A DNA stretch of 36,821 nucleotides, taken from positions 1-36,821 of the forward strand of contig DUVA01000081.1 in the NCBI GenBank assembly GCA_012841305.1. Reading direction: 5' to 3'. Below the pieces are notes generated by a model. That model had not been told where the DNA came from, ran no database searches, and was given only the letters and a program-made list of their open reading frames with translations. Of the stretch, positions 601 to 21,823 are shown piece after piece. Each line of letters begins with the position of its first letter. The stretch's first letter is position 1. A program made the position numbers and the translations under genes. This DNA is from Bacillota bacterium (lineage in GTDB: Bacteria > Bacillota > SHA-98 > UBA4971).

Positions 601-1491
601 TTAACCGGACGATGTCCCGGCTTCTCGTGTTAGGAAAGGAAGTTCTAGATAAGGAAGGAAATGCAAAGCAAGCGTGACCCCAAGGAGATCTCCGGAACCG
701 CCGGGACTGATTCCAAGAGACACAAACTCCTTATCCATAAGAAGAATGCTCTTTCTCCCATCTCCCGTGAACATCCCGCCTTTTGCCAGAGCCATTCTTG
801 CTCGTGGCTTTACCTCTTGCTCCAGGGTCTCTAAGGAGGATCTATGAACCACGCATGTATCATCCAGATACGCCATTATCGAGATTAGAGAGTGCACCAT
901 AGCGTCATTTAATGAAAGACCGCACTTGAGGGCTTTCTCCAATGCAGGTAACCCATGGCCGACCACTGTAGGGAACCCCAGTTCAGCCTCGCCTCTCGCC
1001 CCTGTCAACCCGTGCGTCATGTAGATACGCTCTCCGTGAGAAAGATGGCCCGGACCTGCTTTCGACCGGCTCAAGCCGAGAAGGTCCCTCTCCACTATGC
1101 CACGGGTTATGGCTTTGACACCCTCGGTTACTTTGAACCTGTCAAGCCTTTGGCGCCTGGTAAGGACATACCCGGCAGATGCAGCTATCAATCCTAAACT
1201 GAATATGGCCCCCTTATGGGTGTTTATGCCGCCGGTCGCCTGATACATTCGGGCTTCAGCTTCAAGTCCGATGGATCGCACCTTCTCCAATAATTCGCAC
1301 ACCGGACCGACATGACGCATTCCTGCTTCTGCCATGGCTACAAAACTCGGTGCGATTGCACCTGCGCTTCTCACCAGCTTCGCATGATCCATGTCATCAT
1401 GCGCGCCGGGGCTGTCCACATCAACAAGGCCTGGCGCAGGCGCGCAAGATGCCTCCAGAATCAGGGCAAGGAGTAACACATCACCTATCAT
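601..1491 (-). CDS. mdcB: Triphosphoribosyl-dephospho-CoA synthase (CitG/MdcB/MadG family)
   Basis: LLLALILEASCAPAPGLVDVDSPGAHDDMDH, typical CitG-family N-terminus; ORF open from 1602 but MIGDVL start at 1491 fits after the mdcG stop with TGAGG upstream. Confidence 0.82.
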   Translation of the reverse strand: MIGDVLLLALILEASCAPAPGLVDVDSPGAHDDMDHAKLVRSAGAIAPSFVAMAEAGMRHVGPVCELLEKVRSIGLEAEARMYQATGGINTHKGAIFSLGLIAASAGYVLTRRQRLDRFKVTEGVKAITRGIVERDLLGLSRSKAGPGHLSHGERIYMTHGLTGARGEAELGFPTVVGHGLPALEKALKCGLSLNDAMVHSLISIMAYLDDTCVVHRSSLETLEQEVKPRARMALAKGGMFTGDGRKSILLMDKEFVSLGISPGGSGDLLGVTLALHFLPYLELPFLTREAGTSSG

Positions 1492-1513
1492 TTGAGCCTC
1501 AGGCGGCACCGAA

Positions 1514-2254
1514 TCACAAGAGGTCCTCACGCCTAGCCAGTTTGACTTCACGAATTCCCTTGACAAGGATAGTGTCTCTGCCTGACAAGAGCTCACGGCC
1601 ATTTGCTCCCCACCCTTCCCCCAGCTGTACTTCTACGTCTATTCTTACGGGAAAACTCTTCTCAAGCGTATCAGCCAGCTCGACGATGCGTGCCACCTCG
1701 TCCATGGAGACCCCTGTTACAACAACATCAAGGTCAGATCTGCCGTCAGTATACGGCAGCCCTGTATATATTTCTAAAGCGCCGGATCCCCATACTCCCA
1801 ACCTGATTCCGTCCGGGACTTTCTTTCTCATGACAGATAGCGCAGCCAATGCAGGAGTTCTTGGTACAAATGGCAGCTTTGCAACCTGCTGCGGAGTTAT
1901 TCGTCTTGTAATATGTTTACGATGGAGCACACACGGAACCCTGATTCTTCTTGACTCAGGCATAAATGGAATGACAAATCCTACTGCAATGAAGTCATCT
2001 TTCTTGCCGTCACCGTAAAGCTCACGTGCGGAGTCCATATCGCCATCGGTAAACCTTCGGACAATACCCGGAAGGTACACACCCTTAAGTCCATGTTCAA
2101 GCACCTGCTTGCAGTGGCTTCGCACGGAAGGTGACGGCCAGGAGTCTACCTTCAGCAGACCCTTTACATCCCAAGCCTGCCCCGACAACTGCTTGCGCCC
2201 TTCCGACGAGATTTCCACCAAGTCGTGCCTGGTAAACTCTTTCGGTGTCTGCAT
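1514..2254 (-). CDS. mdcG: Malonate decarboxylase holo-ACP synthase / phosphoribosyl-dephospho-CoA transferase (MdcG family)
   Basis: MQTPKEFTRHDLVEI... and YTDGRSDLDVVVTG nucleotidyltransferase-like motif; between madH-like and mdcB genes; MQTPKEF start has a GAGGTGAG SD. Confidence 0.78.
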   Translation of the reverse strand: MQTPKEFTRHDLVEISSEGRKQLSGQAWDVKGLLKVDSWPSPSVRSHCKQVLEHGLKGVYLPGIVRRFTDGDMDSARELYGDGKKDDFIAVGFVIPFMPESRRIRVPCVLHRKHITRRITPQQVAKLPFVPRTPALAALSVMRKKVPDGIRLGVWGSGALEIYTGLPYTDGRSDLDVVVTGVSMDEVARIVELADTLEKSFPVRIDVEVQLGEGWGANGRELLSGRDTILVKGIREVKLARREDLL

Positions 2255-2268
2255 TACTTGCAGAGGAC

Positions 2269-3405
2269 TCACCTCCTCTTGGTGTAAGCCGGGTCCCATA
2301 CCTTCTCCATCTCATATTTCACCTGGGCTTCGCCAAGGACATCAAAAAGCCTTGTCTTCTCCGGGCCTTCGATGAGAGCTACCATATTGGATTCGTCCTT
2401 GCAGGAACTGCTTTCGGACACAGACAACGACAACTTCAGCAGTGTTCTGCCAGCCCTAACCTTCACGTTCGGGGAACACTTCACAATTCTCGCCTTTGTT
2501 CTCAAAATGGTCCGGGCAACTCTTTGGACGACTTCGGCATTGGGGAGAGGGGATTCCAGGACACTTACTTCAAAGTCAGGATATGTCCGCATGCGTCTGT
2601 AAGTGATGATCTTGCCTTCGCTGTTTAGGACATGGCCTTTCGAGCTTACAGGGAAGCTGTCTGACATGGGAAGCCCCCCTACGACAAGCTCGTAATACTC
2701 TGTGCCGACCGGGGATTTTGCAAGTGAGATATCGTCCCTCAAAGGAACACCATCCATAGTCAGCCACCCGAACTCCTGGCACCCATAGAGGTCATGGACC
2801 TTTGCGCCGAGGAGTTCGTCTGCAATTGGTATAAGGCCCAGATCCATGGGAGTCCCTGCAACAAATATGGAGCTCACAGGGGGTAGGCAGTCCGCGATAC
2901 CCAGCTTTCTCGCGTCCTGCAAAGCGTAATTGATGAAAGCCGATTCTCCGACAATGAAGTCAGGCCTCTCTTCAATGATTGCCAGAAGAAAGGCATCCCT
3001 CGTTGAACGGCGAAGATAGCTCGCGCTGATCTCCAATTCCCGAAGCGCAGCCCACGGAAACACCAGGACCAAAGGGGGATATGTAAATAGCCCCTTAGCG
3101 CCGGACGTAATCCCAGCCAGCTCAAATGCGAGCAAGGATGCGCTGCTTCTATCCGGGATCTCGCTGAACGTGACCCCGACTACATTCTGAAAGGCAGTCG
3201 AACCTGTCGTAAATGATATGTAAGCATAATTCAACGGTGTATGGACTTCTTCGATAACGTGGGCAGCGGTTGGCCCGTTCGCCCCTTTGTCCGCCAGGGT
3301 TCTCCTGGGCATTTCTTCAACGGTAGGAGCCTGGCCCGGTGTCGCTACGCCGGCTCTCAATATCTCCAGGATCTGCTCTCGCTCAAACTCAGGGTGTAGG
3401 CCCAT
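2269..3405 (-). CDS. madH: AMP-forming ligase-like protein, candidate acetate:[malonate decarboxylase ACP-SH] ligase (MadH-like)
   Basis: Adenylate-forming family features (AYISFTTGSTAFQN, DLYGCQEFGWLTMDG, LNSEGKIITYRRMRTYPDFEV); inside the malonate decarboxylase cluster. Confidence 0.65.
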   Translation of the reverse strand: MGLHPEFEREQILEILRAGVATPGQAPTVEEMPRRTLADKGANGPTAAHVIEEVHTPLNYAYISFTTGSTAFQNVVGVTFSEIPDRSSASLLAFELAGITSGAKGLFTYPPLVLVFPWAALRELEISASYLRRSTRDAFLLAIIEERPDFIVGESAFINYALQDARKLGIADCLPPVSSIFVAGTPMDLGLIPIADELLGAKVHDLYGCQEFGWLTMDGVPLRDDISLAKSPVGTEYYELVVGGLPMSDSFPVSSKGHVLNSEGKIITYRRMRTYPDFEVSVLESPLPNAEVVQRVARTILRTKARIVKCSPNVKVRAGRTLLKLSLSVSESSSCKDESNMVALIEGPEKTRLFDVLGEAQVKYEMEKVWDPAYTKRR

Positions 3406-4345
3406 TATCCTCCCCTCCAAGCCAGCACGGAAGTGCCAAATCGAACTCGTTTTCCATGAGCTCGATAACCTTCTCCGAGGTCTTCCTGCCACCACGCCGG
3501 ATACCAGACATGAGCCTCGACCAAGGGCCTACTTTGTCATGTTCGCCGCCTGCCTTGAGCCTTCGAATCTCCGCTATCTGCGCCTCTACGCATGGCCGCA
3601 TATCTTCAACTGCCTCCACAATGCCGTCAACCCCACCGAGGTTATAAAAGTGCGAGACTCCTGCCGCAAATACCGGATTGCTCTCTGCAAGCTCCTCCAG
3701 AAGCACAATATTGATCTTCGTTACCCTGGCAATGCCTATTAGTGGCATCACGTGGATCATAGTCCCAAACGTATCAGAAAGCGCGAGGATCCTGTCTGCC
3801 TGGAGACCGTGACAGAGGAACCCTCCGCTTATCGCTCTGCCGATAACCATTGCGACAATGGGATGCCCCGATCTCCTGGCTTCCGCTGACGCCAACTGGT
3901 ATGCACCTGTTGACTTATAGATGCCTATGATCTCTTCGACCTTGCCAGGACTCATCCCGGGAGTGTCAACTACCAAGATAATCGGCCTTTTCTCTGCCAA
4001 GGGCTTATCTTCGTCTGCCTTGATGGTCAAGTAGACAGCATGCGCCATCTTAAGGCCTTCTTCCAGTCCCATGAGGCCGGCGTAGACCATTCTGAAACGA
4101 GGGTTTGCGAACCCTGCGTCATTTGCAATGACAGTTACGGTCTCCCCTGATATCCTGGCAGTTCCCACTAGCGCTGACTCTGCCCACTCTGGATCAAGTC
4201 TTTCTCCTCCACACAGATTCTCTTGGAAAGACCCTTCGTCAACTATGAGATCTATCGCATCACGACCCCTGCCGTAAAAGTTAATCACAGTCTCCAATCC
4301 TCCCCCGAGGCCAACGCTGGGCATGTGCCGCAAATTCTGAAACAT
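3389..4345 (-). CDS. madD: Malonate decarboxylase carboxyltransferase subunit (MadD/MdcE-like, gamma)
   Basis: Crotonase/carboxyltransferase-like IILVVDTPGMSPGKVEEIIGIYKSTGAYQLASAEARRSGHPIVAMVIGRAISGGFLCHGLQADRILAL; ORF open from 4438, start uncertain. Confidence 0.82.
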   Translation of the reverse strand: MFQNLRHMPSVGLGGGLETVINFYGRGRDAIDLIVDEGSFQENLCGGERLDPEWAESALVGTARISGETVTVIANDAGFANPRFRMVYAGLMGLEEGLKMAHAVYLTIKADEDKPLAEKRPIILVVDTPGMSPGKVEEIIGIYKSTGAYQLASAEARRSGHPIVAMVIGRAISGGFLCHGLQADRILALSDTFGTMIHVMPLIGIARVTKINIVLLEELAESNPVFAAGVSHFYNLGGVDGIVEAVEDMRPCVEAQIAEIRRLKAGGEHDKVGPWSRLMSGIRRGGRKTSEKVIELMENEFDLALPCWLGGEDNGPTP

Positions 4346-5267
4346 CAGAATCCCAAAGGTGTTCAATGTCTTCGTTGCCGAACTGCCTCCATAGATCCCA
4401 AGAGTCTTGGATTTTGTCGTTTGCAGCCAGCTCAACAAGGCGCATTTGCTCCAGCACCATGTCTCCCGTGCCTATGATCCTCTTGGAGCTTATCTTCTCA
4501 AGCGGCCAACTTGCAACTTCAGAAACTTTCTCTCTAAATGCCTTCATTGTGTCTTCCACAATGAAGTCCGCATCACGTGTGATGAACCTATGCCTGCCTC
4601 CTGTGGTCCGCCACACCAAAGCCCTGTTGGCAGCATCGAATTCCTCCGTCCCTACGACTTCCTCGATAACCCCCGGCCCTGTCAAACCCAGCCTTCCCAC
4701 ATCACTCATGATCAGCACGTCTACGGACGATGCCACAAAACCCATTCCTCCGAAACAACCTACGGTGCCCCCTATGACGCCGATAATCGGCACCTTGCCC
4801 CTTGCTGCTTGGAATGCATCCATCACTTCAGAATGAGCAAGCAGGCCTGCGTTGGCTTCCTGAAGCCTTACCCCGCCGGTGTCAAAGGAAATCACCAGCG
4901 CAACCTGGCCTGAGTCTTCAGAAGACCTATATTGTGATTTCAGAATCTCCTGCCCGCGCAAAGCAAGGCGGATGGCCATAACCATTTTTGTGCCGTGGAC
5001 TTCACCGACACCCCCTCCTACGAACCTGCTCTCCTGAGACACGACGACAACAGGGGCCTTGCCTGCCTTTCCCAAACCCACGACTATCCCGTCGTCAAAC
5101 TGCGGCGTCTGCCCCATTGGAGGTAGGTGAGGGCTGGTCAATTTACGCCTGGGACACAAGAGCTCGATGAAGCTGTCGGGATTACAGATGGCAAACGCCC
5201 TTTCTCTGGCATTGAGTCGCGAGAAAGGCTGGTCCTGCATTAGATTCCATCTATCGTCCATAACCAA
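4281..5267 (-). CDS. madC: Malonate decarboxylase carboxyltransferase subunit (MadC/MdcD-like, beta)
   Basis: LNARERAFAICNPDSFIELLCPRRKLTSPHLPP...VVVVSQESRFVGGGVGEVHGTKMVMAIRLAL...VIGVIGGTVGCFGGMGFVASSVDVLIMSD. Confidence 0.85.
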   Translation of the reverse strand: MVMDDRWNLMQDQPFSRLNARERAFAICNPDSFIELLCPRRKLTSPHLPPMGQTPQFDDGIVVGLGKAGKAPVVVVSQESRFVGGGVGEVHGTKMVMAIRLALRGQEILKSQYRSSEDSGQVALVISFDTGGVRLQEANAGLLAHSEVMDAFQAARGKVPIIGVIGGTVGCFGGMGFVASSVDVLIMSDVGRLGLTGPGVIEEVVGTEEFDAANRALVWRTTGGRHRFITRDADFIVEDTMKAFREKVSEVASWPLEKISSKRIIGTGDMVLEQMRLVELAANDKIQDSWDLWRQFGNEDIEHLWDSDVSEFAAHAQRWPRGRIGDCD

Positions 5268-5288: not shown

Positions 5289-5612
5289 CTATTTTACGGA
5301 CATTTCTCTTGCGAGTTGCGATAGTCTGAGCTTAACTACTGCCGGGGTGGCGCCGTCATCGTTTATCCAGATCTCGCATCCGCACACTTTGCGGGTAGCC
5401 ATGAACTCGTCGATAACCATCTGCCAGACGCTCCCAAACCCCACAGCGCTGGTAGTTATACGAATTCTACTTACATTGGCCTGAGCCGGTAAGCGCTCTA
5501 CCAGAATCTCCAGATCCCCTGACATTACATGCCCGACATGGAGATAATCCCAACCGTCTCTTTTCTCCTCCGGTACTCCGGTATACTCAAATTCCAATCG
5601 CTCCAGAGCCAC
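5289..5612 (-). CDS. madE: Malonate decarboxylase acyl carrier protein (MadE/MdcC family)
   Basis: 107 aa; HVMSGDLEILVE fits the conserved SGDLE prosthetic-group attachment serine of MdcC/CitD-like ACPs; between madA and madC. Confidence 0.83.
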   Translation of the reverse strand: MALERLEFEYTGVPEEKRDGWDYLHVGHVMSGDLEILVERLPAQANVSRIRITTSAVGFGSVWQMVIDEFMATRKVCGCEIWINDDGATPAVVKLRLSQLAREMSVK

Positions 5613-5652: not shown

Positions 5653-7335
5653 CTACCATTCCCTGAACCGGTCCGGGGGACGATAAAGCCCGCCTGACCA
5701 CTCCACCAATTCCCTTATGGAATGAGCTGCAAGATGCGAGGTGCTTGCATCTCCAATATCGATACCCAAATCCTCGGGAGTCTGAACTATTCCTTGCCGT
5801 CTGAGCTCCAGAGTCTCCTTAGGGTCGGCTTCCCTGCCCAGGTCAGTGTAACCTGCCACAGCCTTAATAGCGGCTTCTCGCTGTTTCAGCGAATCACATC
5901 TGAGAAGGTGCGCTATTCCTTCCTCAGTAACCAGGTGAGTAATGGCGTCACCGTACATCATGATAGGCGGAATTGCAAAGCCTGCTTCCTCCATCAGTGT
6001 CCATGCATCCAGACGATGGACGAAGCTTTGAACACGTCCTGCTCCAAAGGTTTCCACCATCTGAATAACCAGCTTTCTGCCACGCTCCACCGGTCCGATG
6101 AGGCCTCTTGTCATGGCGCTTTCCCTTCCCGCCCTAAGCCAACTCGGAGTGGAATGCCGCCTCCCGGGCGGATCACACCCCATGTTCGGTGCACCGCCGA
6201 ACCCTGCAATCCTGCCTGCAACCGCAGCAGAGCTATTACCATACCGATCAACCTGCAGAGTCGAGCCTACAAATGCATCGACAGCATAGTGGCCTGCAAC
6301 CTGGCACATAGCCCTATTTGACCTCATGTTTCCGTCGGGTCCGATGAAGAACACATCGGGACGACTGGCCATGTAATCCTCCATGCCCACCTCAGAGCCG
6401 AACGAATGAACCGACTCAACGAACCCGCATTCAATAGCCGGAATAAGACTGGGATGCGGATTTACCGTCCAATGAGAACAGATCTTGCCCTTAAGACCAA
6501 GGCTTTCCGCATACGTGGGAAGGAGCAATTCGATTGCACAAGTCCCGAAGCCGATTCCGTGATTCAGCGACCTCACTCCGTATTCCCCGTAGATACCTTT
6601 GATCACCATCATAGCCATAAGGACATGCACATCTGTGATAAGCGCAGGATCCCTTGTAAAGAGGGGCTCAGTATAGCATGGCCTGCCCACCGGGACAAGG
6701 AAATCCACCCACTCTCCGGGTATGTCGACTCGTGGCAGCTTATCCACGATCTTCTCAACCTGTGCCACGACAATCCCCTGTCTGAATTTGGTAGCTTCAA
6801 CTATCGTGGGGGTATCCTCTGTGTTCGGCCCGGTATATAGGTTACCGGCTCGGTCCGCCGAAATCGCAGCAACCAGCGCCACGTCCGGAGTGAGATCAAC
6901 GAAGTAACGGCCGAACAGCTCCAGATAGGTGTGGATCTCCCCTATCTTCATCTTGCCTTCGCTGACCATCTGAGCTACTCTGGCACTCTGAGGAGATGAG
7001 TATGAAAAATCAGCGAGCCGGGCAATTCCGCGCTCAAACACCTCACAGTGGGATGGAAGAGCAATAACTGACTGCACCATGTGAAGATTATTCACTCGCT
7101 TGGCGTCTACATTGCACAAACAGTCTGCCAGGAAATCAGCTTGTTTTTGGTTGTTTCCTTCAAGCGCCACCCTGTCACCTGACTGAATTACCGCCTCCAA
7201 TAAGGATACGCAATCAAGAGGATCCACTATCTTGCTGCCTGGCTCAGATACAAACTGTTGTGCCTCACATAGCCGCTTCAGAAACTCATTCTTCCTCAGC
7301 GTCCATTCAGTTCTTCTCGCAGCCATGCTTTCCAT
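5653..7335 (-). CDS. madA: Acetyl-S-ACP:malonate ACP transferase (MadA/MdcA, malonate decarboxylase alpha subunit)
   Basis: 560 aa; RTEWTLRKNEFLKRLCEA, GNNQKQADFLADCLCNVDAKRVNNLHMVQSV, CoA-transferase-like features typical of MdcA. Confidence 0.9.
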   Translation of the reverse strand: MESMAARRTEWTLRKNEFLKRLCEAQQFVSEPGSKIVDPLDCVSLLEAVIQSGDRVALEGNNQKQADFLADCLCNVDAKRVNNLHMVQSVIALPSHCEVFERGIARLADFSYSSPQSARVAQMVSEGKMKIGEIHTYLELFGRYFVDLTPDVALVAAISADRAGNLYTGPNTEDTPTIVEATKFRQGIVVAQVEKIVDKLPRVDIPGEWVDFLVPVGRPCYTEPLFTRDPALITDVHVLMAMMVIKGIYGEYGVRSLNHGIGFGTCAIELLLPTYAESLGLKGKICSHWTVNPHPSLIPAIECGFVESVHSFGSEVGMEDYMASRPDVFFIGPDGNMRSNRAMCQVAGHYAVDAFVGSTLQVDRYGNSSAAVAGRIAGFGGAPNMGCDPPGRRHSTPSWLRAGRESAMTRGLIGPVERGRKLVIQMVETFGAGRVQSFVHRLDAWTLMEEAGFAIPPIMMYGDAITHLVTEEGIAHLLRCDSLKQREAAIKAVAGYTDLGREADPKETLELRRQGIVQTPEDLGIDIGDASTSHLAAHSIRELVEWSGGLYRPPDRFREW

Positions 7336-7349
7336 ATTCTCAAGCCCCT

Positions 7350-7613
7350 TTATACTTCTTCCAGGGTCATAAGGAGGTCCCCGGCTTTTACCATTTGCCC
7401 TGTGCTTGCATGGATCTCCACAACTCTTGCCTTCTTAGGCGAGAGAATTTGGTTCTGCATCTTCATAGCCTCAATGAACGCTACTTCCTGTCTTACGTCA
7501 ACAACATCGCCTACCCCGGGCAAGTCAGTCTTTCTCATAGGGTGCTTGCCGGGATTTATGGTAAGCTGTCCCGGAAGCTTCGCTCTGATTTCAAACGAGT
7601 TTCCGTTTTTCAT
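7350..7613 (-). CDS. madF: Biotin carrier protein of malonate decarboxylase (MadF-like)
   Basis: 87 aa biotinyl domain with EAMKMQN biotinylation motif; between madB and madA. Confidence 0.9.
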   Translation of the reverse strand: MKNGNSFEIRAKLPGQLTINPGKHPMRKTDLPGVGDVVDVRQEVAFIEAMKMQNQILSPKKARVVEIHASTGQMVKAGDLLMTLEEV

Positions 7614-7678: not shown

Positions 7679-8815
7679 CTAGCCCAGTAGAGTCAGAAAG
7701 CACCCGGCTGCAACCGCAGTCCCGATTACGCCTGCGACGTTCGGGCCCATTGCATGCATAAGTAGGAAGTTCTCAGGGTTTGCCCTCTGTCCCTCCACCT
7801 GGCATACGCGGGCAGCCATAGGAACTGCTGACACTCCGGCTGCTCCGATAATTGGGTTTATCTTTCCTCCGCTCAACACGTAGAATAGTTTTCCAAGTAG
7901 GACTCCACCTGCTGTACTGACTGCGAATGCAACAGCGCCAAGCGCCAGGATCTTAAGGGTTGCCACAGTCAAGAAGGTATCAGCGCCCATTGTTCCGCCT
8001 ACAGCGATAGTCAGGAGTATGGTCACTATATTGACCATCTCACCCTGCGCGGTATTGAAAAGGCGATCCGTCACACCGGACTCCCTCAAGAGGTTTCCAA
8101 GCATTAGGCAACCTATAAGCGGGGTAGTATCCGGCAATAACAAACAACCGACAAGCGTTGTCACAATGGGAAAGAGGATTTTTGTGGTCTGTGAAACAGG
8201 CCTGGGATCCTCCATTACGGTCTCACGTTCTTTTTGTGTAGTAAGAAGGCGAATAACCGGCGGCTGAATCAAGGGCACAAGTGACATGTATGAGTAAGCC
8301 GCAACCGCCACAGCCCCTAGCAGATGAGGAGCGAGTTTCACAGCAAGGTAAATTGCGGTAGGGCCGTCTGCTCCGCCGATTATGGCGATAGAGGCAGCCT
8401 CTCTGATGCCAAAACCCAGCGCATCTGCGAGGAACATAGCGAAAAACACCCCGAACTGCGCTGCAGCCCCTAACAAGAAGGTTACAGGCCGAGCAAGCAA
8501 CGGACCAAAGTCAGTCAAAGCGCCTATTCCCATAAAAATCAAACATGGAAGTATTTCTGTTTCCAGTCCGTATGTGTAGAAGTAGTAGAGAAGTCCTCCT
8601 TCATCTGAAATGCCCGCTCCCGGAATATTGGCTAATAGGCACCCGAAGGCTATCGGCAGAAGCAGTAGGGGCTCAAAGCCCTTGCTAATGGCCAGGTAAA
8701 GGAGGACAATGGCAACTCCGATCATTATCAGGTTCCCCGCTGTCAAGCCCAGGAGTCCACCGGACGCTAACACTGATACCAAAGTTTTCAAAAACAAGGA
8801 TATCCCCCATCTCAT
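7679..8815 (-). CDS. madB: Na+-translocating carboxybiotin decarboxylase (MadB; OadB/GcdB/MmdB family)
   Basis: GGADGPTAIYLAVKLAPHLLGAVAVAAYSYMSLVPLIQPPVIRLL and GAAGVSAVPMAARVCQVEGQRANPENFLLMHAMGPNVAGVIGTAVAAG are hallmark beta-subunit motifs. Confidence 0.95.
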   Translation of the reverse strand: MRWGISLFLKTLVSVLASGGLLGLTAGNLIMIGVAIVLLYLAISKGFEPLLLLPIAFGCLLANIPGAGISDEGGLLYYFYTYGLETEILPCLIFMGIGALTDFGPLLARPVTFLLGAAAQFGVFFAMFLADALGFGIREAASIAIIGGADGPTAIYLAVKLAPHLLGAVAVAAYSYMSLVPLIQPPVIRLLTTQKERETVMEDPRPVSQTTKILFPIVTTLVGCLLLPDTTPLIGCLMLGNLLRESGVTDRLFNTAQGEMVNIVTILLTIAVGGTMGADTFLTVATLKILALGAVAFAVSTAGGVLLGKLFYVLSGGKINPIIGAAGVSAVPMAARVCQVEGQRANPENFLLMHAMGPNVAGVIGTAVAAGCFLTLLG

Positions 8816-8928
8816 TCAGGCGTAATCGCACTGAGCGCCATAATCACCAAGCAAAGAAAACCCGTCACAAGGAAAACAGTGGTAATTGATACGAGACATA
8901 CTGTAAGCGTACTAATTCCGGGTTCCAT
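8812..8928 (-). CDS. 38-aa single-TM peptide, candidate minimal OadG/MmdD-like gamma subunit
   Basis: Manual translation MEPGISTLTVCLVSITTVFLVTGFLCLVIMALSAITPE*; below ORF-track cutoff; ATGA overlap with madB start (8812-8815); hydrophobic pattern like OadG N-termini. Confidence 0.6.
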   Translation of the reverse strand: MEPGISTLTVCLVSITTVFLVTGFLCLVIMALSAITPE

Positions 8929-9011: not shown

Positions 9012-10055
9012 TTATGCTTGCTCCGACGCTCCAAGGCTTCTTAAGAAAGCCGTCAAAAGTGTAGATACCTGGTCCATTGTGTTAAGGTCAATAACTTCGT
9101 ACGGAGAATGGGAATTTCGCCTCGGCACTGTCACCGAAACACACTTTATGTCAGACCACTCATCGTATACACCTGCAGCATCTGTAAACAGGCCAAAGCG
9201 CACATCCAGGCTATAAGGAATACCTGCCTTACCGGCTGATTCCTTAAGACCGGCCACAAGTTCTCTGTCAGCGAAGAACATCAACATACCCCTTGCGGGT
9301 TTCACTGACTCAAATCGCCTTATGACAGGCCCTGTACCCAGTGGGACTCCTACACCCGGCCCTGCTTCAGGATCCCCGCCATATCCTGTGTCAATGGAAA
9401 TAGCCCACTTCGGATAGACGGTTTTTGCCAGGTGCCGCGCTCCCCTGCATCCGATTTCCTCCTGAACCGTAAATGCGAACATCACGCTTACATCAAGTTC
9501 AACTTCGGCCAGGCGTCGTGCAGTCTCAAGTAAAATTGCACATCCTTGTCGATTATCAACTGCTCTTGATGCAAGCAGCGTTTCCTCGTCATCCAACCAT
9601 CGTGGAGTTGTGTCAAACACTATCGGATCTCCCGGTTCCACCTGAGAACAACGCGGCCCTGCATCAATCCAAAGGCGGTTTAGGGTTTGGCCTAAGTGAG
9701 TGCTGGGTGAACGAACTACACCCGGAACAGGCCCTTTTTCTGTTAGAATCACTACAGGTTGGCCTGCTGTCACAGCTGCGTTTATGTCCACCACAAATTC
9801 AAACCACACAAATCCGTCCCTGACATCAGTCGTGACCATGCTTATCTCATCCATGTGAGCCATCAGCACCAAAACCGGGGCTCCTTCCGGGCCTTCTCTA
9901 GTAGCCAATAAGTTCCCCATTCCGTCTGTTTGCACTGTGGACACATGTGATTGGATCTTCTTACTGATCACCTCTGCCACCGGCTGTTCAAAACCGGAGG
10001 GGCCTGGGATTTTCACAAGGTCAAGGAAATCACGGCGTAGATCTGCAATACCCAT
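9012..10055 (-). CDS. M42-family metallopeptidase (glutamyl aminopeptidase/endoglucanase-type) or related amidohydrolase
   Basis: Metal-site motifs MAHMDE, SRAVDNRQGCA, VQEEIGCRGARH, SIDTGYGGDP, NSHSPYEVID; start MGIADLRRDF with GGTGGGAG upstream. Confidence 0.85.
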   Translation of the reverse strand: MGIADLRRDFLDLVKIPGPSGFEQPVAEVISKKIQSHVSTVQTDGMGNLLATREGPEGAPVLVLMAHMDEISMVTTDVRDGFVWFEFVVDINAAVTAGQPVVILTEKGPVPGVVRSPSTHLGQTLNRLWIDAGPRCSQVEPGDPIVFDTTPRWLDDEETLLASRAVDNRQGCAILLETARRLAEVELDVSVMFAFTVQEEIGCRGARHLAKTVYPKWAISIDTGYGGDPEAGPGVGVPLGTGPVIRRFESVKPARGMLMFFADRELVAGLKESAGKAGIPYSLDVRFGLFTDAAGVYDEWSDIKCVSVTVPRRNSHSPYEVIDLNTMDQVSTLLTAFLRSLGASEQA

Positions 10056-10888: not shown

Positions 10889-12307
10889 CTAATTTCCGTC
10901 GGCGTACTCTTTCCCGAAGGCAATAATTGCCTTCTCAAAACATTCCCAAGGTGGATTCACCAATCCGGCTCCTACCTGGCCCACACCTGGAGCCTTATGG
11001 GCAATTCCGGTATTTATCTGAGGCAATATGCCTGTTTCCACTACTTTTCTGATGTCTATGCCTGTCGGTGTGCCCCTGAAGTTCAAGATGGGTATAGTAA
11101 AGTGCCTATTCTCAGTAATTGTTATGCTGTACATCTTCTCAGAAAACCTGATGGCGTCTTCAGGTGCGCCACCCACGAATTGAACAATGGGGATGGCAGC
11201 TGCCATAGCGAAGCCGCCCACACCTGCAGTCTCCGTTATCGCTGAGTCACCGATATCAGGGTTTGCATCTTCTTCAGAATACCCGGGGAAGTAAAGGCCC
11301 TTGACTATCTCTGCAGGACCGGTAAACCACTGATTGCCCAACCCGCTGACTTTAATTCCGAACTCCGTGCCGTTTCTGGCCATTATCGTCACAACAGAAC
11401 TCTTGTGGATACCGTGGGCAGCCTCAAGCATTGCCTTGACTGCAGGCATAGAAAGGTTGAGAAAGAAATGGTCGTTGGAATTAACGAATTCCAGGCACTT
11501 TCTAATATCAGCTTGTGGATGATCCACCTCCACCAGGTAAGGAACTAAGGCTCGTATGAGGAGGGATGTCCCTGCCCTGTTTCGATTATGCACTTCATCC
11601 CCCATGTGCAGTGCTTGGGCTATCATTGACTTGAGATCTATGCCGCCTGAAAGCTCAATTGCCTTCTTCAAGATTGGGGCGAGAACTTTCTCCATCCATC
11701 TCAGCCTATCCAAGACTTCCTCGCTGTAGGCTCCGTACCGGAGGACCTTTCCCAGGCCTTCGTTGAGTGTAGAATAGGATCGATTTCCATGGGTCCTGTT
11801 TTCCAAAATGAATACTGGCATCCTCGGCGAAACTACCCCTGCCATAGGCCCCACGGCAGAGTGCTCATGACACGGGGAGTACTCGATATCGCCTTTTGAG
11901 GCTAGTTCTTCAGCCTTCTCCGGTGAATCTGCCCACCCCTCGTACAAGATTGCACCTATCACAGCGCCGCGCAGAGGGCCCGACATTTTGCCCCAGGTGA
12001 TGGGAGGTCCTGCGTGAAGCAGCATTCGATCGCCAAATCCGGGAATTGCCTCACGGGCCACACCGATACCGGTAAGGACAGGTTGCGCTGAACTGAACCT
12101 CTCAATTGCCGTTTGGTTAGCCTTATCGATATCACTTCTGCCTTCCAGCTCATCAAGGATATCAATGAGTTCAGCCTTACCATGGGCAGGAGGCTGCCAT
12201 TTCACCTGATATACGTTGGCGCCTTGTTCCTGCATAGATTCGGCAAATACACCGCTTCCCACATTAATCACTCCCCCTTCAGGGGGCCAATTCCTTATCG
12301 TAAGCAC
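10889..12307 (-). CDS. allG: DUF1116 protein (YlbE/AllG-like), candidate carbamoyltransferase subunit
   Basis: 472 aa; NVGSGVFAESMQEQGANVYQVKWQPPAHG...LILYEGWADSPEKAEELASKGDIEYSPCHEHSAVGPMAGVVSPRMPVFILENRTHGNRSYSTLNEGLGKVLRYG, DUF1116-like; next to FdrA-like gene. Confidence 0.82.
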   Translation of the reverse strand: MLTIRNWPPEGGVINVGSGVFAESMQEQGANVYQVKWQPPAHGKAELIDILDELEGRSDIDKANQTAIERFSSAQPVLTGIGVAREAIPGFGDRMLLHAGPPITWGKMSGPLRGAVIGAILYEGWADSPEKAEELASKGDIEYSPCHEHSAVGPMAGVVSPRMPVFILENRTHGNRSYSTLNEGLGKVLRYGAYSEEVLDRLRWMEKVLAPILKKAIELSGGIDLKSMIAQALHMGDEVHNRNRAGTSLLIRALVPYLVEVDHPQADIRKCLEFVNSNDHFFLNLSMPAVKAMLEAAHGIHKSSVVTIMARNGTEFGIKVSGLGNQWFTGPAEIVKGLYFPGYSEEDANPDIGDSAITETAGVGGFAMAAAIPIVQFVGGAPEDAIRFSEKMYSITITENRHFTIPILNFRGTPTGIDIRKVVETGILPQINTGIAHKAPGVGQVGAGLVNPPWECFEKAIIAFGKEYADGN

Positions 12308-13875
12308 TGTCTCGTTCCTCCCTGCGCCTTGATAATTCGAGATACCAAATCTGCCGCTGCCCGGTTCGAGGAAAGGACCTCTGCTCCTGCCTCGCTCAAG
12401 ACTGCGGCCTGCTTCTCCAAGCCTTGGGGATCTCCTGCAGTGCCCACCATGACAGCAATCTGCGCCAGCCCTTGGCCCATATCCTTTCGAATCCGCCCGG
12501 CTTCCCTCACGGCTTCAGCCATTACGCCTGCAGGATCTCTGTGACACCCGTACCCCAACACTACATCGAATAGAAGGATCCCCACATCCTTACGGCCTGC
12601 CTCCGCAATGTACCTGGGAACTCTCATTCCTGGATCCAGCATTGGGTGGGGCTTTCCTCGGGTAAAGTAATCCTCTCCCATATCAATACAAGTGTTGGCA
12701 AAACTCTCCAGAGGGTCTTCAATCAAGAGTCGTCTATCCTGTGCAATGTTGGAATACACATCTATGCCCATCCTTCGGAGCATAGTCAGTGTTTCATGGC
12801 ACAGGGTCCCACCTGAGTACAACCCTCTGAAGTATCCTCCACCATCCACCCTTCTCATCACTTTACGGGCCATTTCGTCGAGTTCATCGCGAGAGTAGAG
12901 GCTCTCCTTGGACTCTCCGGTTGCCAATTGATAAGCCAGAATCGCAGCCTCCTCCAGATCACCGGCAAACAGCACCTTACCTGATCGGCTTCTGCGGGCT
13001 TCCCCAACCTCCTCACCCATGAAGCACACAACCACGGGTTTTGCCCCGTCGTCCAACATCCTTATGAGGTTGTCACGAACACTGGGATGAGGGGGCTTTG
13101 ATATCAAGACTTTGACAGCTGTGTTGGGATCTGATTCAAGAAAAGCCAATCCCATAAAAGTGGTAATCCCGCCTACGTCTTTACTCAAATCGCGCCCGCC
13201 TGTTCCGATAGCTTCAGAGATTCCTTCACCAAGCCTGTCGATAATAGCCATTACCTGTTGCAGCCCTGTACCGGCTGCAGCCACAATACCAATCCTCCCG
13301 GACCTGACTTTATTCGCGAACCCTAGTCCCAGACCGCCGATGACAGCAGTCCCGCAATCAGGCCCCATAACAAAGAGGCCCTTCTCTTTGCCTGACTTCT
13401 TTAGGCGGACCTCATCCTCAACAGAGACGTTGTCGCTGAACAAAAAGACATGTAAGCCACTGGCAAGGGCCTCTCCGGCTTCCCTTGCGGCATACTCACC
13501 GGGAACGGATATTGCTGCGATTCCAGCGCCTCCCACAGAGGCTGCTTCGGACAGAGTCGCATAGATCTTTGCTGCCTTTACGCCTGGCTCTTGCCGGGCG
13601 GAGCCTTCCAAACTTTCCTTAATGACTTCCTCTGCGTTATCTATGGCATCCTCGGCTTCTGCCACAACAGCGACAATGAGATCATTGGCTGTAGCTGTCT
13701 CCAGTTCTTGGGAGACAAACCCCATTTCCCTGACTGCGTCCTTATTAAGCCCAGTCGCCATTCCCACCTGAGCTGCGACCACCTTATCTATGTTCCGGAC
13801 TGTCCGGGCCAGGCGCATGAGCACAATAGAGTCATGGTAACTATTGGGCTTTATTACCAACCTTTTGAACACCAC
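12295..13875 (-). CDS. allF: FdrA-like protein (AllF), candidate carbamoyltransferase subunit with succinyl-CoA-ligase-like folds
   Basis: VMGPDCGTAVIGGLGLGFANKVRSGRIGIVAAAGTGLQQVMAIIDRLGEGISEAIGTGGRDLSKDVGGITTF; FdrA-like length and context. Confidence 0.85.
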   Translation of the reverse strand: MVFKRLVIKPNSYHDSIVLMRLARTVRNIDKVVAAQVGMATGLNKDAVREMGFVSQELETATANDLIVAVVAEAEDAIDNAEEVIKESLEGSARQEPGVKAAKIYATLSEAASVGGAGIAAISVPGEYAAREAGEALASGLHVFLFSDNVSVEDEVRLKKSGKEKGLFVMGPDCGTAVIGGLGLGFANKVRSGRIGIVAAAGTGLQQVMAIIDRLGEGISEAIGTGGRDLSKDVGGITTFMGLAFLESDPNTAVKVLISKPPHPSVRDNLIRMLDDGAKPVVVCFMGEEVGEARRSRSGKVLFAGDLEEAAILAYQLATGESKESLYSRDELDEMARKVMRRVDGGGYFRGLYSGGTLCHETLTMLRRMGIDVYSNIAQDRRLLIEDPLESFANTCIDMGEDYFTRGKPHPMLDPGMRVPRYIAEAGRKDVGILLFDVVLGYGCHRDPAGVMAEAVREAGRIRKDMGQGLAQIAVMVGTAGDPQGLEKQAAVLSEAGAEVLSSNRAAADLVSRIIKAQGGTRQCLR

Positions 13876-14765
13876 GCATACCTCCTTTGCCAGTTCAGGG
13901 CAAGGTAAATGCCTAGCCCTATATCACAGCCGGACGTAGCGCCCACTGAAAGCAACCTACCTACTGCGTCTTTTGCCTCACCGGGTTCTCCTGTAAGCAC
14001 GTAAACCAAGGCTCTTTCTACAGTCTCATGAGCGCATCCTTCCAGCGCTCGATTAATGAAGAACGCGCTGAGATCAGACGTCTTGTGCAGGTTCCTTCTA
14101 ACGCAGGCTTCCCATATACTCCCTTTCGATCGCCAGGGTGTTCCAAAAACACTCCTGGCCAAACTGATTCCAAGGACCAAATCATCACCACTGGGAGTAA
14201 GGCCCGGCCCAAACCCGATTACCCCAGCCAAAGCCTTCTCCAGCCCTTCCCTGTCATTCTCAAGCAAAGTCCTTCTGATATCCTCAATGACCCCGCCGCA
14301 CGCAGCCGGTTCACTGTTGACATTGAACTTGAAACCTCTGCTAAACACAGAATCATTATGTTTTGAAGCTAGGGCTGATTCTAGAACTGCCATGTTCTCG
14401 TCTCCAATTGTATGCAGGCAATTGACAGCCTCTAAAGGGCTTCTCCATCCCTTGCTGCCACTGAAATCTATGACAGTCTTTTCTCCAAGCCACAGGCTGC
14501 AGGAGGCAGGCATGCCGGCTTCATCTCCCGGAGATACGTCCAGGGCGAAGAAAGAGAACCTTTCTGATACAGCCACTGTCGCAACGTCCTTTCCACATCC
14601 TCGTCCCAGCGGCAGGATAGTGAGAAAGCCTGACCCGGCTACAAGGTTAACGGCATGAGTGAATACACTGTGCACCTTAAATGTCTTCCGGTCTTTCAAC
14701 ACACGTTCGAATTCTCGGCCGTGACTTACTGCGGTTAGATAAAATGGCTGTTCATACATATCCAT
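13854..14765 (-). CDS. allH: DUF2877 protein (YlbF/AllH-like), candidate carbamoyltransferase subunit
   Basis: ALAGVIGFGPGLTPSGDDLVLGISLA, DUF2877-like PSGDD motif; adjacent to allF/allG-like genes. Confidence 0.8.
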   Translation of the reverse strand: MDMYEQPFYLTAVSHGREFERVLKDRKTFKVHSVFTHAVNLVAGSGFLTILPLGRGCGKDVATVAVSERFSFFALDVSPGDEAGMPASCSLWLGEKTVIDFSGSKGWRSPLEAVNCLHTIGDENMAVLESALASKHNDSVFSRGFKFNVNSEPAACGGVIEDIRRTLLENDREGLEKALAGVIGFGPGLTPSGDDLVLGISLARSVFGTPWRSKGSIWEACVRRNLHKTSDLSAFFINRALEGCAHETVERALVYVLTGEPGEAKDAVGRLLSVGATSGCDIGLGIYLALNWQRRYAWCSKGW

Positions 14766-14901: not shown

Positions 14902-16635
14902 TCACAGGCATCCGTTGAGGTGGTGCCCCATATCGAAGATCCTGGACAAGCGGAGAGCTGTCTGTAAGGACAGACGTTGATCAGCATGATTGGGGTCAAG
15001 GCCTGTAAGTTCCTTTATTTTTCTCAGCCGGTAAAGGATTGTGTTGTAATGAGCATACATCAACTCTGCGGTCTTTCGGGCGTTACCGTTAGTTTTGAAG
15101 TAAGCCTCAAGGGTCTTCAGGAGTTCGCCGCCTTTTGACCCGTCGTAATCCCGAAGCTCACCTATAATCTCATCGGCAAATCGCTTCTGCTCATCCAGGT
15201 CTGCCTGGCCCAACAGAAGACCGTATATACCCAGCATTTCGTAGTGGATGTTCTGACCTTTGCCGAAAATAACTTTACCCAGGTCCATGGCTACTTTAGC
15301 CTCTCTGAACCCTCTCTTTATACCTGTCACGCCACTAACCCGGCGGCTGACGCCTGAACTCACTGTCCATCTCCCAAGGTTGCTACGGGCCTTCTTGAGC
15401 AAGCGGTCAGTCCAAGACGTGACATCATCTTCGTTGACTTGCCCCGGATACACAAACAGCAGGATTCCACTGGCATGCCTGGTCAGAATATACCTTAGAC
15501 GATTTCTCCGGCAAAAATCAGCAATAACAGTCGTAGCCTGTGTCTTTGCCAGTTGACATGCTTTTTCATACTCGGCGATATCGCTGATTTCCCTTGACGG
15601 CAGGACATCGAAAAGGATCGTCACGTAGTCCAAACCCAGATTCCATCCGAATGTCCTGGCTCGTTCCAGGAATCCCTCTTCAGCCGGATTGTCAGAGGAA
15701 AACAGTTGATCCAGGAATTCTGTGCGGTATTTCTGCTCTACCTGCGTCACGTCATGATAACGTATTACGTCAAGAGCAATAAGCGGGCAAAGCCGCTCCA
15801 GACTGTACAAGTCTGTTACGCTAAACTCCCCGAAGAATTTCACTGCTGTAAGAGACCCTAACTGCTCGTTTGCCGCGGTAACCGGAGCGCGGATGATTTC
15901 AGCTTTATAGCCGTTTGTCTCAACCTGGTTGCGTTTGAACCAAAGCACAGTGCCTTCCACGCGATCAGTGAATGTCTCAGGTTCAAGATGCTCCGTAGGC
16001 CGATCAAGCAACTCACCTATGAGGGCCTCGTTAGACGGTCCCCAGCACATACCGGACACTGATCTTCTCAGATTCAACGAATCGTCTATAGATACCACTG
16101 CCTGGAGAAGGTCTGCTGCGGCTCCCGATATCTCCTGAAGGCCTCCCCCCTGCAGCAGGAGGTTTATGAACCTTCTGTGAGCGACTAGGCTAACCTGCAC
16201 AAACCTGCTTTGGCGATTAACGAGTTCTGCCAGGACGGCTGATATGAGGTCAGAGAAGTTGGCTTCACGTGGAAGCTCCAGGAGAGGCACTCCAAGTTCA
16301 TCTGCGGCATCTATCATGTGAGGCGGAATCGCGTCTATGTACCGTTTCGGTTTCATACCCAGCACTGCCAATCCTTTACTCGCAAGAGTCGGCAGTAGGG
16401 CTCTTTGAGCGTCCAGGTTGTCCTTGATTGCATAGCCTGTTGTCAAGAGCATGTCTCCCTCTCGCACCCAGTCGAGGATATCAGGGACTTCCATGACGTT
16501 AATGTTAGTGACAACCCGTTCCATACCGGACCTGCCCCCGGCTACGGCAACCCCGGAGAATTCAGGCAACTCGAGAACTTCTCTGACAGTGATTCCGACT
16601 TCATGAAACATCATTTGCGACCCTCCATGAACCAT
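14902..16635 (-). CDS. PucR-family transcriptional regulator
   Basis: PucR N-domain GITVREVLELPEFSGVAVAGGRSGMERVVTNINVMEVPDILDWVREGDMLLTTGYA and C-terminal HTH NARKTAELMYAHYNTILYRLRKIKELTGLD; MFHEVGI start likely slightly downstream. Confidence 0.9.
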   Translation of the reverse strand: MVHGGSQMMFHEVGITVREVLELPEFSGVAVAGGRSGMERVVTNINVMEVPDILDWVREGDMLLTTGYAIKDNLDAQRALLPTLASKGLAVLGMKPKRYIDAIPPHMIDAADELGVPLLELPREANFSDLISAVLAELVNRQSRFVQVSLVAHRRFINLLLQGGGLQEISGAAADLLQAVVSIDDSLNLRRSVSGMCWGPSNEALIGELLDRPTEHLEPETFTDRVEGTVLWFKRNQVETNGYKAEIIRAPVTAANEQLGSLTAVKFFGEFSVTDLYSLERLCPLIALDVIRYHDVTQVEQKYRTEFLDQLFSSDNPAEEGFLERARTFGWNLGLDYVTILFDVLPSREISDIAEYEKACQLAKTQATTVIADFCRRNRLRYILTRHASGILLFVYPGQVNEDDVTSWTDRLLKKARSNLGRWTVSSGVSRRVSGVTGIKRGFREAKVAMDLGKVIFGKGQNIHYEMLGIYGLLLGQADLDEQKRFADEIIGELRDYDGSKGGELLKTLEAYFKTNGNARKTAELMYAHYNTILYRLRKIKELTGLDPNHADQRLSLQTALRLSRIFDMGHHLNGCL

Positions 16636-16824: not shown

Positions 16825-18063
16825 TTACGCTTCGGCTCTCGGAAGAATCTGGTTGAGGATTATGCCGAGTATAGCTGCAAGGCCCATACCACCCAGTTGA
16901 GCATTGCCCCACAGGGTAATCATTGCACCGCCGATACCCACAACCAGAATTACACTGGCAATAAACAAGTTCCTTGAATCCTTCAAATCAACATTGTTCT
17001 CTACCATAGTCCTAACGCCGATAGCTGCAATCATACCAAAGAGCACAATAGAGATTCCTCCGATAACAGGATCGGGAATCGTCCTGATGGCCGCGCCAAG
17101 CTTCCCAACGAATGCCAATAGGATGGCAGCGACTGCTGCTACCCTCATAACCTCAGGCTTCCACACTTTCGTCAAGGCCAAGACACCGGTATTCTCAGAG
17201 TAAGTAGTGTTGGCAGGCCCGCCAAACAAACCTGCAAGCGATGTAGCAACACCGTCTCCCAGAAGTGTCCTGGTGAGGCCTGGGTCTTCTATGAAGTCGT
17301 CTTCCACCGTAGCTCCTACAGCCAGAATATCTCCAACGTGTTCCACCATACTGGCAAAAGCTGCAGGGGCAATGATCCCGATAGCAGCAGCGTCAAACAC
17401 AGGGAATGTAAATTGCGGCAGTCCTATCCACGCTGCCTGCACCACCGGGGTCGGATCTACGTTACCTGTTATGAGACAGATTATGTACCCGACAACAATC
17501 CCTGCAATAACCGGCAACAATCTCAGGAAACCCTTGAGATACAGGTTTACAATAGCAACTGTAGCAAGCACAATCAGCGCGATCGGCCAATTCTGGCTTG
17601 CGCTTCCGATGGCAACAGGCGCCAGGTTCAACCCTATTACCATAATGATAGGTCCTGTAACCACAGGCGGAAGTATCCGCTGCATAAACTCAGGGCCAAG
17701 AAAATGAATGAGAATTCCGAAAGCTACATAAAGAAAGCCGGCTACAATAATTCCTCCCTGAGCTGCAGGAATTCCCTTTTCTGCCACCACCATTGCCACC
17801 GGCGCAATAAACGCAAATGATGATCCCAAAAACACCGGCACTCTTCCTCTAGTAACCAGATGAAACCATAGAGTTCCGATTCCTGCTGTGAACAAAGCTA
17901 CGCTGACGTCAAGGCCGGTTAGGAGCGGAACAAGAACTGTGGCGCCGAACATGGTGAACGCATGTTGAAGACCGAGTATGAGCAGTTGGTGTGTAGGCAG
18001 ATGGTCTCCGGGTTTAATCGGCCCCATGATTCTCGTGTTAACCGTTGGCTTAGTACTAGCCAT
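16825..18063 (-). CDS. NCS2/NAT nucleobase permease of the UraA (uracil) type
   Basis: [97 protein letters not shown] start at 18063. Confidence 0.9.
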
Positions 18064-18110
18064 TACTTTTTCCTCCCTTCGTGCTCCTTCGCCCATCGCT
18101 CTACAAATAG

Positions 18111-20953: not shown

Positions 20954-21823
20954 TCACTTCACCTCCCTGATTGCTGCAAGGCCTGAAAGAGCTTGCCGAA
21001 TAGCGTTTCCGGCCATAACCTCTGTCATTTCAAGGCGATACTCCTCGCCTGCTCTTATGTCGCTGATGGGAACAGCCATCTCTCTTGCAAGAGACGCAGC
21101 CTGAGCTATTGCTTCATCGTCCTTACTGTTCAGCAAGACAGACTCAGCTTCTCTTGCTCTTATCGGGGTCGGTGCCACTGCTCCCAGGGCAATCCGAACC
21201 TCTCCGCTTGCGAAAGCCAAGCAAGCGACACTTACGATGGACAAGTCAACAGAGTCGGTTCGACCCAATTTCAGATACACCCCGTATGATTGGGTGTCAT
21301 TCTTAGGAAGCCTGATCTTGTAGACGAACTCTCCCTTTTCCAGGACGGTCTTACCCGGCCCGGTGAAGAATTCACTGATAGGAATCAGGCGTGAGCTCTT
21401 CGGCCCCCAAGTCTCAATCTCAGCTTCGTATACTAATAACGCAGGGGCAGTATCAGCTGCCGGAGAAGCATTGCATATGTTTCCGCCGATTGATGCCCGG
21501 TTTCTGACTTGAAGAGATCCTACGGAATGGGCTGCCTGCGCCAACAACCCGTACTCTGAGCGAATGAACTTGTTTCTTACAAGCATGTTCAAAGGTGATG
21601 CTGCGCCTATGGAGAGACCCTCTCCGTTCTGATGCTCTATTCCCTCGATTCCTTCAATTGCCTTGAGGTCTATCAATGTCTTGGGTCTCAGCTGTCTGTC
21701 GTACATACGCACAAACAGATCTGTTCCGCCTGCGAGGAAACTGCCGGTGTGGCCTGCTTCAATAGCAAGGTTCACCGCATCCTCCCGGGTTCCTGCACGT
21801 ACATAATCAAAAGGTAACAGCAC
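20954..21823 (-). CDS. Molybdenum hydroxylase FAD-binding medium subunit
   Basis: FLAGGTDLFVRMYDRQLRPKTLIDLKAI, VRNRASIGGNICNASPAADTAPALLVYEAEIE. Confidence 0.95.
   Translation of the reverse strand: MLLPFDYVRAGTREDAVNLAIEAGHTGSFLAGGTDLFVRMYDRQLRPKTLIDLKAIEGIEGIEHQNGEGLSIGAASPLNMLVRNKFIRSEYGLLAQAAHSVGSLQVRNRASIGGNICNASPAADTAPALLVYEAEIETWGPKSSRLIPISEFFTGPGKTVLEKGEFVYKIRLPKNDTQSYGVYLKLGRTDSVDLSIVSVACLAFASGEVRIALGAVAPTPIRAREAESVLLNSKDDEAIAQAASLAREMAVPISDIRAGEEYRLEMTEVMAGNAIRQALSGLAAIREVK

Follow-up and report, generated by a model that had tools for sequence, protein, structure and literature searches.

The stretch of DNA considered here, contig DUVA01000081.1 of a Bacillota bacterium (36,821 nucleotides, hereafter the window), encodes together the three carbamoyltransferase subunits AllF, AllG and AllH (AllFGH), and the gene cluster to which they belong probably specifies an anaerobic, energy-conserving pathway for the oxidation of uracil. 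The carbamoyltransferase genes alone occupy positions 10889–14765; the larger cluster extends both ways, and profile matches together with direct reading of the sequence place a single-strand series of genes on the minus strand from 21823 down to 601, the genes past 22130 being chiefly housekeeping ones. This series looks like a complete energy-saving anaerobic route from uracil through barbiturate, ureidomalonate and malonate to acetate. No paper describing such a pathway or gene set was found in the open-access literature, subscription papers and preprints not being covered.

In the proposed route, for which every substrate and enzyme role is drawn from gene context, an NCS2 permease would import uracil and a molybdenum enzyme of the xanthine dehydrogenase (XDH) family would hydroxylate it to barbiturate, the ring of which would be opened by a cyclase-family metal hydrolase to give ureidomalonate. 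AllFGH would then convert ureidomalonate and phosphate into malonamate and carbamoyl phosphate, a reaction that would correspond, with one additional CH2, to the conversion of oxalurate and phosphate into oxamate and carbamoyl phosphate (PMC11326118). A carbamate kinase from another part of the genome could make ATP from the carbamoyl phosphate, an M42 hydrolase could free ammonia from malonamate, and a Mad-type biotin enzyme would turn malonate into acetate while exporting sodium. Thymine and methylmalonate could take the same route.

Beyond this organism, there is a reasonable case that anaerobic oxidation of pyrimidines along such lines is widespread, with phosphorolysis of the ureido group to carbamoyl phosphate as a source of ATP and with malonate, the product, powering a sodium pump. 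If true, anaerobes of many phyla would oxidise uracil and conserve energy twice, as ATP from carbamoyl phosphate and as a sodium gradient from malonate. Genes could then be assigned to uracil dehydrogenase, to a second kind of barbiturase and to a new carbamoyltransferase specificity, and the automatic Pfam label 'oxamate carbamoyltransferase' on such proteins would need correcting. To our knowledge, no sequence is known for uracil dehydrogenase or for a barbiturase outside the AtzD family.

Recurrence of the core gene set across phyla

The gene families and their order, their recurrence and the position of AllG in the tree are direct observations; families were assigned with Pfam and NCBIfam models, bit scores being compared with the model cut-offs. 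Scanning 85,462 species genomes with the AllG of the window yielded 80 loci, chosen because they resemble the window; in a phylum-wide search, 61 of 399 genomes had AllG. The majority of the loci come from metagenome bins, and the phylum assignment may be mistaken for a few of them. Neighbouring genes were counted within a 9-kb radius of 136 AllG rows, which are related, so that the events are not independent. The cyclase lies within this radius in 77 of the 136 rows, 55 of which also have XDH, and among the loci drawn from phylum genomes it stands beside about 20 of 50 AllG copies. The core of AllHFG, cyclase and XDH occurs in at least 15 named phyla, including Bacillota, Actinomycetota, Chloroflexota, Bacteroidota, Verrucomicrobiota, Planctomycetota, Myxococcota and Riflebacteria.

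To this core, individual lineages add a carbamate kinase, an amide hydrolase, a CaiB-type coenzyme A (CoA)-transferase or a decarboxylating pump (MmdA/OadG/biotin/OadB). The amide hydrolase belongs to the nitrilase family in many Bacillota, to the amidase-signature family in Chloroflexota and Bacteroidota, and to M42 in the window. The pump is found in Halanaerobiales (L017/L151), L130 and L135, and copies that are partial or facing occur in L032, L045 and L140. Almost all of the proposed steps fall within one gene row in the Bacillota locus L130, which reads PucR-AllH-AllF-AllG-CoA-transferase-cyclase-carbamate kinase-nitrilase-MmdA-OadG-biotin-OadB-XdhB-XdhC. Thermacetogenium (L007) has genes for a cytosine deaminase-like protein and for an NCS1 permease between cyclase and XDH, and the related cluster L052 likewise has a cytosine deaminase-like protein. 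Haloarchaeal plasmids carry a 53–55% identical cyclase beside XDH without AllFGH; one from Halostagnicola (L186, 53% identical cyclase) has cytosine deaminase and cytosine permease in addition. In other Bacillota (L146, L159) and on an Aminobacter plasmid, a ring-opening hydrolase of the AtzD/barbiturase family replaces the cyclase beside AllFGH. Ring openers, amidases and malonate or malonyl-CoA decarboxylases swapped around a constant core are the outcome expected of a common pathway.

That nucleobase, AllFGH and malonate genes stand together by chance and share no pathway is highly improbable. Such a chance neighbourhood would fit the differences in gene order between lineages and the location of the carbamate kinase on another contig, but the same parts, with XdhA motifs in common, recur across the phyla named above. 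Moreover, decarboxylase genes lie near AllG in 13 of the 77 cyclase-linked rows against 2 of the 59 others, nitrilase genes in 18 against none and CoA-transferase genes in 16 against 1, counts that again come from related rows. Chance is thus largely refuted by the recurrence.

Some associations lie to the side of this core. A ring-opening amidohydrolase of the AtzD/barbiturase family adjoins AllFGH, often with carbamate kinase, in L146, L148, L149, L157, L159, L163, L168, L172 and L180, which points to a role for some 'cyanuric acid hydrolase' homologues in pathways yielding carbamoyl phosphate. AllFGH also occurs with an isochorismatase-like cysteine hydrolase and carbamate kinase (L181, L182, L144, L154, L038–L063, including an Escherichia coli IncF plasmid and Nitrospira), a set that probably serves yet another ureido substrate. 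Three genes stand beside AllFGH, cyclase and XDH in L058 (3595–5868) and about 20 other loci, encoding a thiolase, an OB-fold (DUF35) protein and a GNAT-fold protein of about 240 amino acids (aa) that Pfam does not match; the structure model of the last is a plain GNAT acyltransferase, which does not name its reaction. Thiolase and OB-fold genes are also found near XDH and cyclase on a Halorussus plasmid (L190).

The carbamoyltransferase and its separation from the allantoin type

The three subunit genes of the window are as follows.

13854–14765, minus strand: AllH (DUF2877), 303 aa; PF11392, 2.4e-22
12295–13875, minus strand: AllF (FdrA), 526 aa; NF004760, 458 bits, over its cut-off
10889–12307, minus strand: AllG (DUF1116), 472 aa; PF06545, 9.4e-104

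The first-pass annotation, made from the sequence alone, had noted that allH, allF and allG overlap, and the open reading frame coordinates give exactly these overlaps, 13854–13875 (22 nt) and 12295–12307 (13 nt). Translational coupling, which it had suggested, is plausible because good ribosome-binding sites (AAGGAGG for allF, GGGAGG for allG) precede the GTG starts of both genes. AllF is 38% and AllG 48% identical to the E. coli proteins, and a relative of AllG has a solved structure (3clq). The E. coli counterpart of the first ~55 residues of the window AllG (12143–12274) is the C-terminal end of AllF, so that the boundary between the subunits is not the same in the two groups.

The same annotation held that the window has no ureide genes, and a tblastn search with E. 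coli AllA, AllB, AllC, AllD, AllE, Hyi and AllW, and with carbamate kinase, indeed returned nothing real (best E 0.12). In the AllG tree, the window protein does not cluster with the characterised E. coli AllG: a branch with 100/100 support separates it from the allantoin-linked AllG of E. coli, Enterococcus and L150. At thirteen well-conserved positions, H149, N241, N278, H280 and R411 (window numbering) among them, AllG of this type departs from the allantoin type. None of the 77 cyclase-linked rows has a relative of allantoinase, allantoate hydrolase or ureidoglycolate dehydrogenase within 9 kb, and oxalyl-CoA decarboxylase did not exceed its curated cut-off in any of 15 sampled genomes of this kind, one control genome being positive.

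These observations bear on the alternative that AllFGH is an ordinary oxamate carbamoyltransferase whose oxalurate would come from a source such as parabanate or scavenged ureides, with a malonate operon that is independent of it. AllG does share 81 near-invariant columns with its E. coli counterpart besides the 48% identity; small genes fill only part of the gaps of 196 and 343 nt around oadB, which leaves the continuity of the operon unproven; and CoA:oxalate CoA-transferase is the top model for the CoA-transferase of related clusters, with a score under the cut-off. Nevertheless, the branch in the AllG tree, the lack of ureide genes in the window and the 77 rows, the lack of oxalyl-CoA decarboxylase in the 15 genomes, and the linkage of this core to an MmdA-type decarboxylase in several further lineages all speak against this alternative, which appears unlikely. 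They likewise support, at the level of sequence, the earlier suggestion that a C3 carbamoyl acid takes the place of oxalurate, the malonate link recurring elsewhere with a different decarboxylase (MmdA/OadG/biotin/OadB). The pairing of XDH with cyclase, the uracil-type permease and the cytosine deaminase of related clusters sharpen the putative C3 acid to ureidomalonate.

Proposed nucleobase uptake, hydroxylation and ring opening

The cluster includes further genes on the strand of AllFGH, which the first-pass annotation had not listed.

20954–21823, minus strand: XDH-family subunit binding flavin adenine dinucleotide (FAD), XdhB-like; NF043083, 208 bits
20459–20950, minus strand: XDH-family 2Fe-2S subunit, XdhC-like; NF043084, 190 bits
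18111–20459, minus strand: XDH-family molybdopterin subunit, proposed uracil 6-hydroxylase; NF043082, 579 bits, below the 780 cut-off
16825–18096, minus strand: NCS2 nucleobase permease, proposed uracil uptake; uracil permease model 378 bits (cut-off 477), the best single model
14902–16635, minus strand: PucR-family regulator; PF07905, PF13556
10066–10851, minus strand: cyclase-family metal hydrolase, proposed barbiturate ring opening; PF04199, 1.2e-36
9012–10055, minus strand: M42 metallohydrolase, candidate malonamate amidase; PF05343, 5.6e-55, start taken at an internal ATG

The closest solved structures to the molybdopterin subunit are 4-hydroxybenzoyl-CoA reductase and the CO and nicotinate dehydrogenases. 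It carries the motifs GGGFGGKAGLNVE and GARGIGEH, the former common to most cluster relatives, unlike E. coli XdhA. Most XdhA proteins of such clusters have the motif GGGFGGKAG in place of the GGGFGNKQD of E. coli XdhA. In mammalian xanthine dehydrogenase a substrate-binding glutamate follows GGK, which makes xanthine an unlikely substrate here. For the permease, the other models scored 369 (NCS2), 332 (RutG) and 226 bits (xanthine permease). The cyclase-family hydrolase is related to kynurenine formamidase and isatin hydrolase, and its motif HxGTHxDx..H is kept in 85 of 85 cluster copies. The M42 counterpart in L002 has 347 aa. In L160, L161 and L170 an M42 hydrolase immediately follows AllG, with a D-hydantoinase-like gene near, and this is an independent link between M42 and AllFGH.

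The malonate decarboxylase operon

Malonate-processing genes had been reported downstream of AllFGH, and family matches together with direct reading place them from 8928 to 601.

8812–8928, minus strand: OadG-like one-helix protein, 38 aa; direct sequence reading, overlaps the oadB start by 4 nt
7679–8815, minus strand: OadB/MadB carboxybiotin decarboxylase, sodium pump; TIGR01109, 499 bits, over cut-off
7350–7613, minus strand: biotin carrier, MadF-like, 87 aa; direct sequence reading, EAMKM motif
5653–7335, minus strand: MdcA/MadA acyl carrier protein (ACP) transferase; TIGR01110, 887 bits, over cut-off
5289–5612, minus strand: malonate decarboxylase ACP; TIGR03130, 94 bits, over cut-off
4281–5267, minus strand: malonate decarboxylase beta subunit; NF005530, 339 bits, over cut-off
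3389–4438, minus strand: malonate decarboxylase gamma subunit; TIGR03134, 271 bits, over cut-off
2269–3405, minus strand: candidate MadH-like acetate:ACP ligase, 378 aa; position and a ligase-like stretch
1514–2299, minus strand: MdcG holo-ACP synthase; PF10620, 1.9e-19
601–1602, minus strand: MdcB triphosphoribosyl-dephospho-CoA synthase; TIGR03132, 272 bits, slightly under the 282 cut-off

The OadG-like protein and the biotin carrier are both below the size threshold of the open reading frame list. Since OadB, biotin carrier, MdcA, ACP and the carboxyltransferase pair occur together, the predicted decarboxylase is of the sodium-pumping, biotin-dependent Malonomonas type, not the soluble type. 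The protein at 2269–3405 may be the acetate:ACP ligase; it is conserved within the genus (L002, L004), has no Pfam or NCBIfam match, and its structure model (predicted local distance difference test score 37) is too poor for a structure search.

The outline of the pathway could also be right with another pyrimidine or C3/C4 ureido acid as the substrate, such as thymine processed via 5-methylbarbiturate to methylmalonate. The genes for an MmdA-type (methylmalonyl-CoA) decarboxylase in Halanaerobiales and other Bacillota would suit this, as would the known enzyme activity that bears the name uracil/thymine dehydrogenase. However, the decarboxylase of the window is malonate-specific and is accompanied by ACP and cofactor genes dedicated to it, and the cytosine deaminase-like proteins of related clusters point to uracil, so that another substrate seems quite improbable.

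Likely fate of the ureido group and points against the pathway

The genome of the organism encodes, on another contig, a carbamate kinase scoring 443 bits, over the cut-off. An AtzD-family barbiturase found no match in this genome or in three of the same genus (G028 was positive), and no urease was found in the former; the assembly is 89% complete, which makes its absences uncertain, and the three genomes of the genus agree. With a strong carbamate kinase and no match to AtzD-type barbiturase or urease, the ureido group likely ends as carbamoyl phosphate, not urea. At L178 (G000:C192, 2017–7032) of the same genome, carbamate kinase, D-hydantoinase, YgeY, an XDH iron-sulphur protein and a MocA-like protein form a cluster resembling that of the reductive uric acid pathway (PMC12507026).

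Several points weigh against the uracil pathway as proposed. The carbamate kinase is sited outside the window, in that D-hydantoinase/YgeY cluster, and the amidase step would be taken by differing enzymes in different lineages, M42 proteins being usually peptidases. The oxalate-type top model of the CoA-transferase is a further such point, and the GNAT-fold, thiolase and OB-fold trio of many clusters has no place in the proposed steps. A single clade for all cyclase-linked AllG was neither shown nor rejected (approximately unbiased test, p-AU 0.15), and the idea that the haloarchaeal XDH belongs to the same subfamily as the cluster XDH was not borne out.

Comparison with known systems

The oxamic transcarbamylase AllFGH of E. 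coli (PMC11326118) consists of the same three families and subunits, and its carbamoyl phosphate product feeds carbamate kinase. It belongs with allantoin genes, whereas the set of the window has XDH, cyclase and malonate decarboxylase neighbours, falls on a separate AllG branch, and carries at the AllG N-terminus a segment of about 45 residues that ends AllF in E. coli. The E. coli genes YahEFG-YahI-YahJ are similar in uniting AllHFG paralogues (YahG is 51% identical to the window AllG) with carbamate kinase-like and amidohydrolase genes, and differ in having no cyclase, XDH or malonate genes.

As far as the oxidative pyrimidine pathway of barbiturase and ureidomalonase is described in the citing source (Soong et al., as cited in PMC3758960), barbiturate, ureidomalonate and malonate would be shared with the route proposed here. 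In contrast to that outline, the window would use a cyclase-family ring opener and form carbamoyl phosphate in place of urea, in a genome without match to AtzD barbiturase or urease.

The Mad decarboxylase of Malonomonas rubra likewise has MdcA/MadA, ACP, two carboxyltransferase subunits, a biotin carrier, OadB/MadB and cofactor genes. The set of the window differs in being joined to a nucleobase cluster and in an OadB that scores poorly on the malonate-specific MadB model (TIGR03136, 172 bits against a cut-off of 597). Overall, the cluster brings together elements of the E. coli carbamoyltransferase, of the route through barbiturase and ureidomalonase, and of the decarboxylase of Malonomonas.

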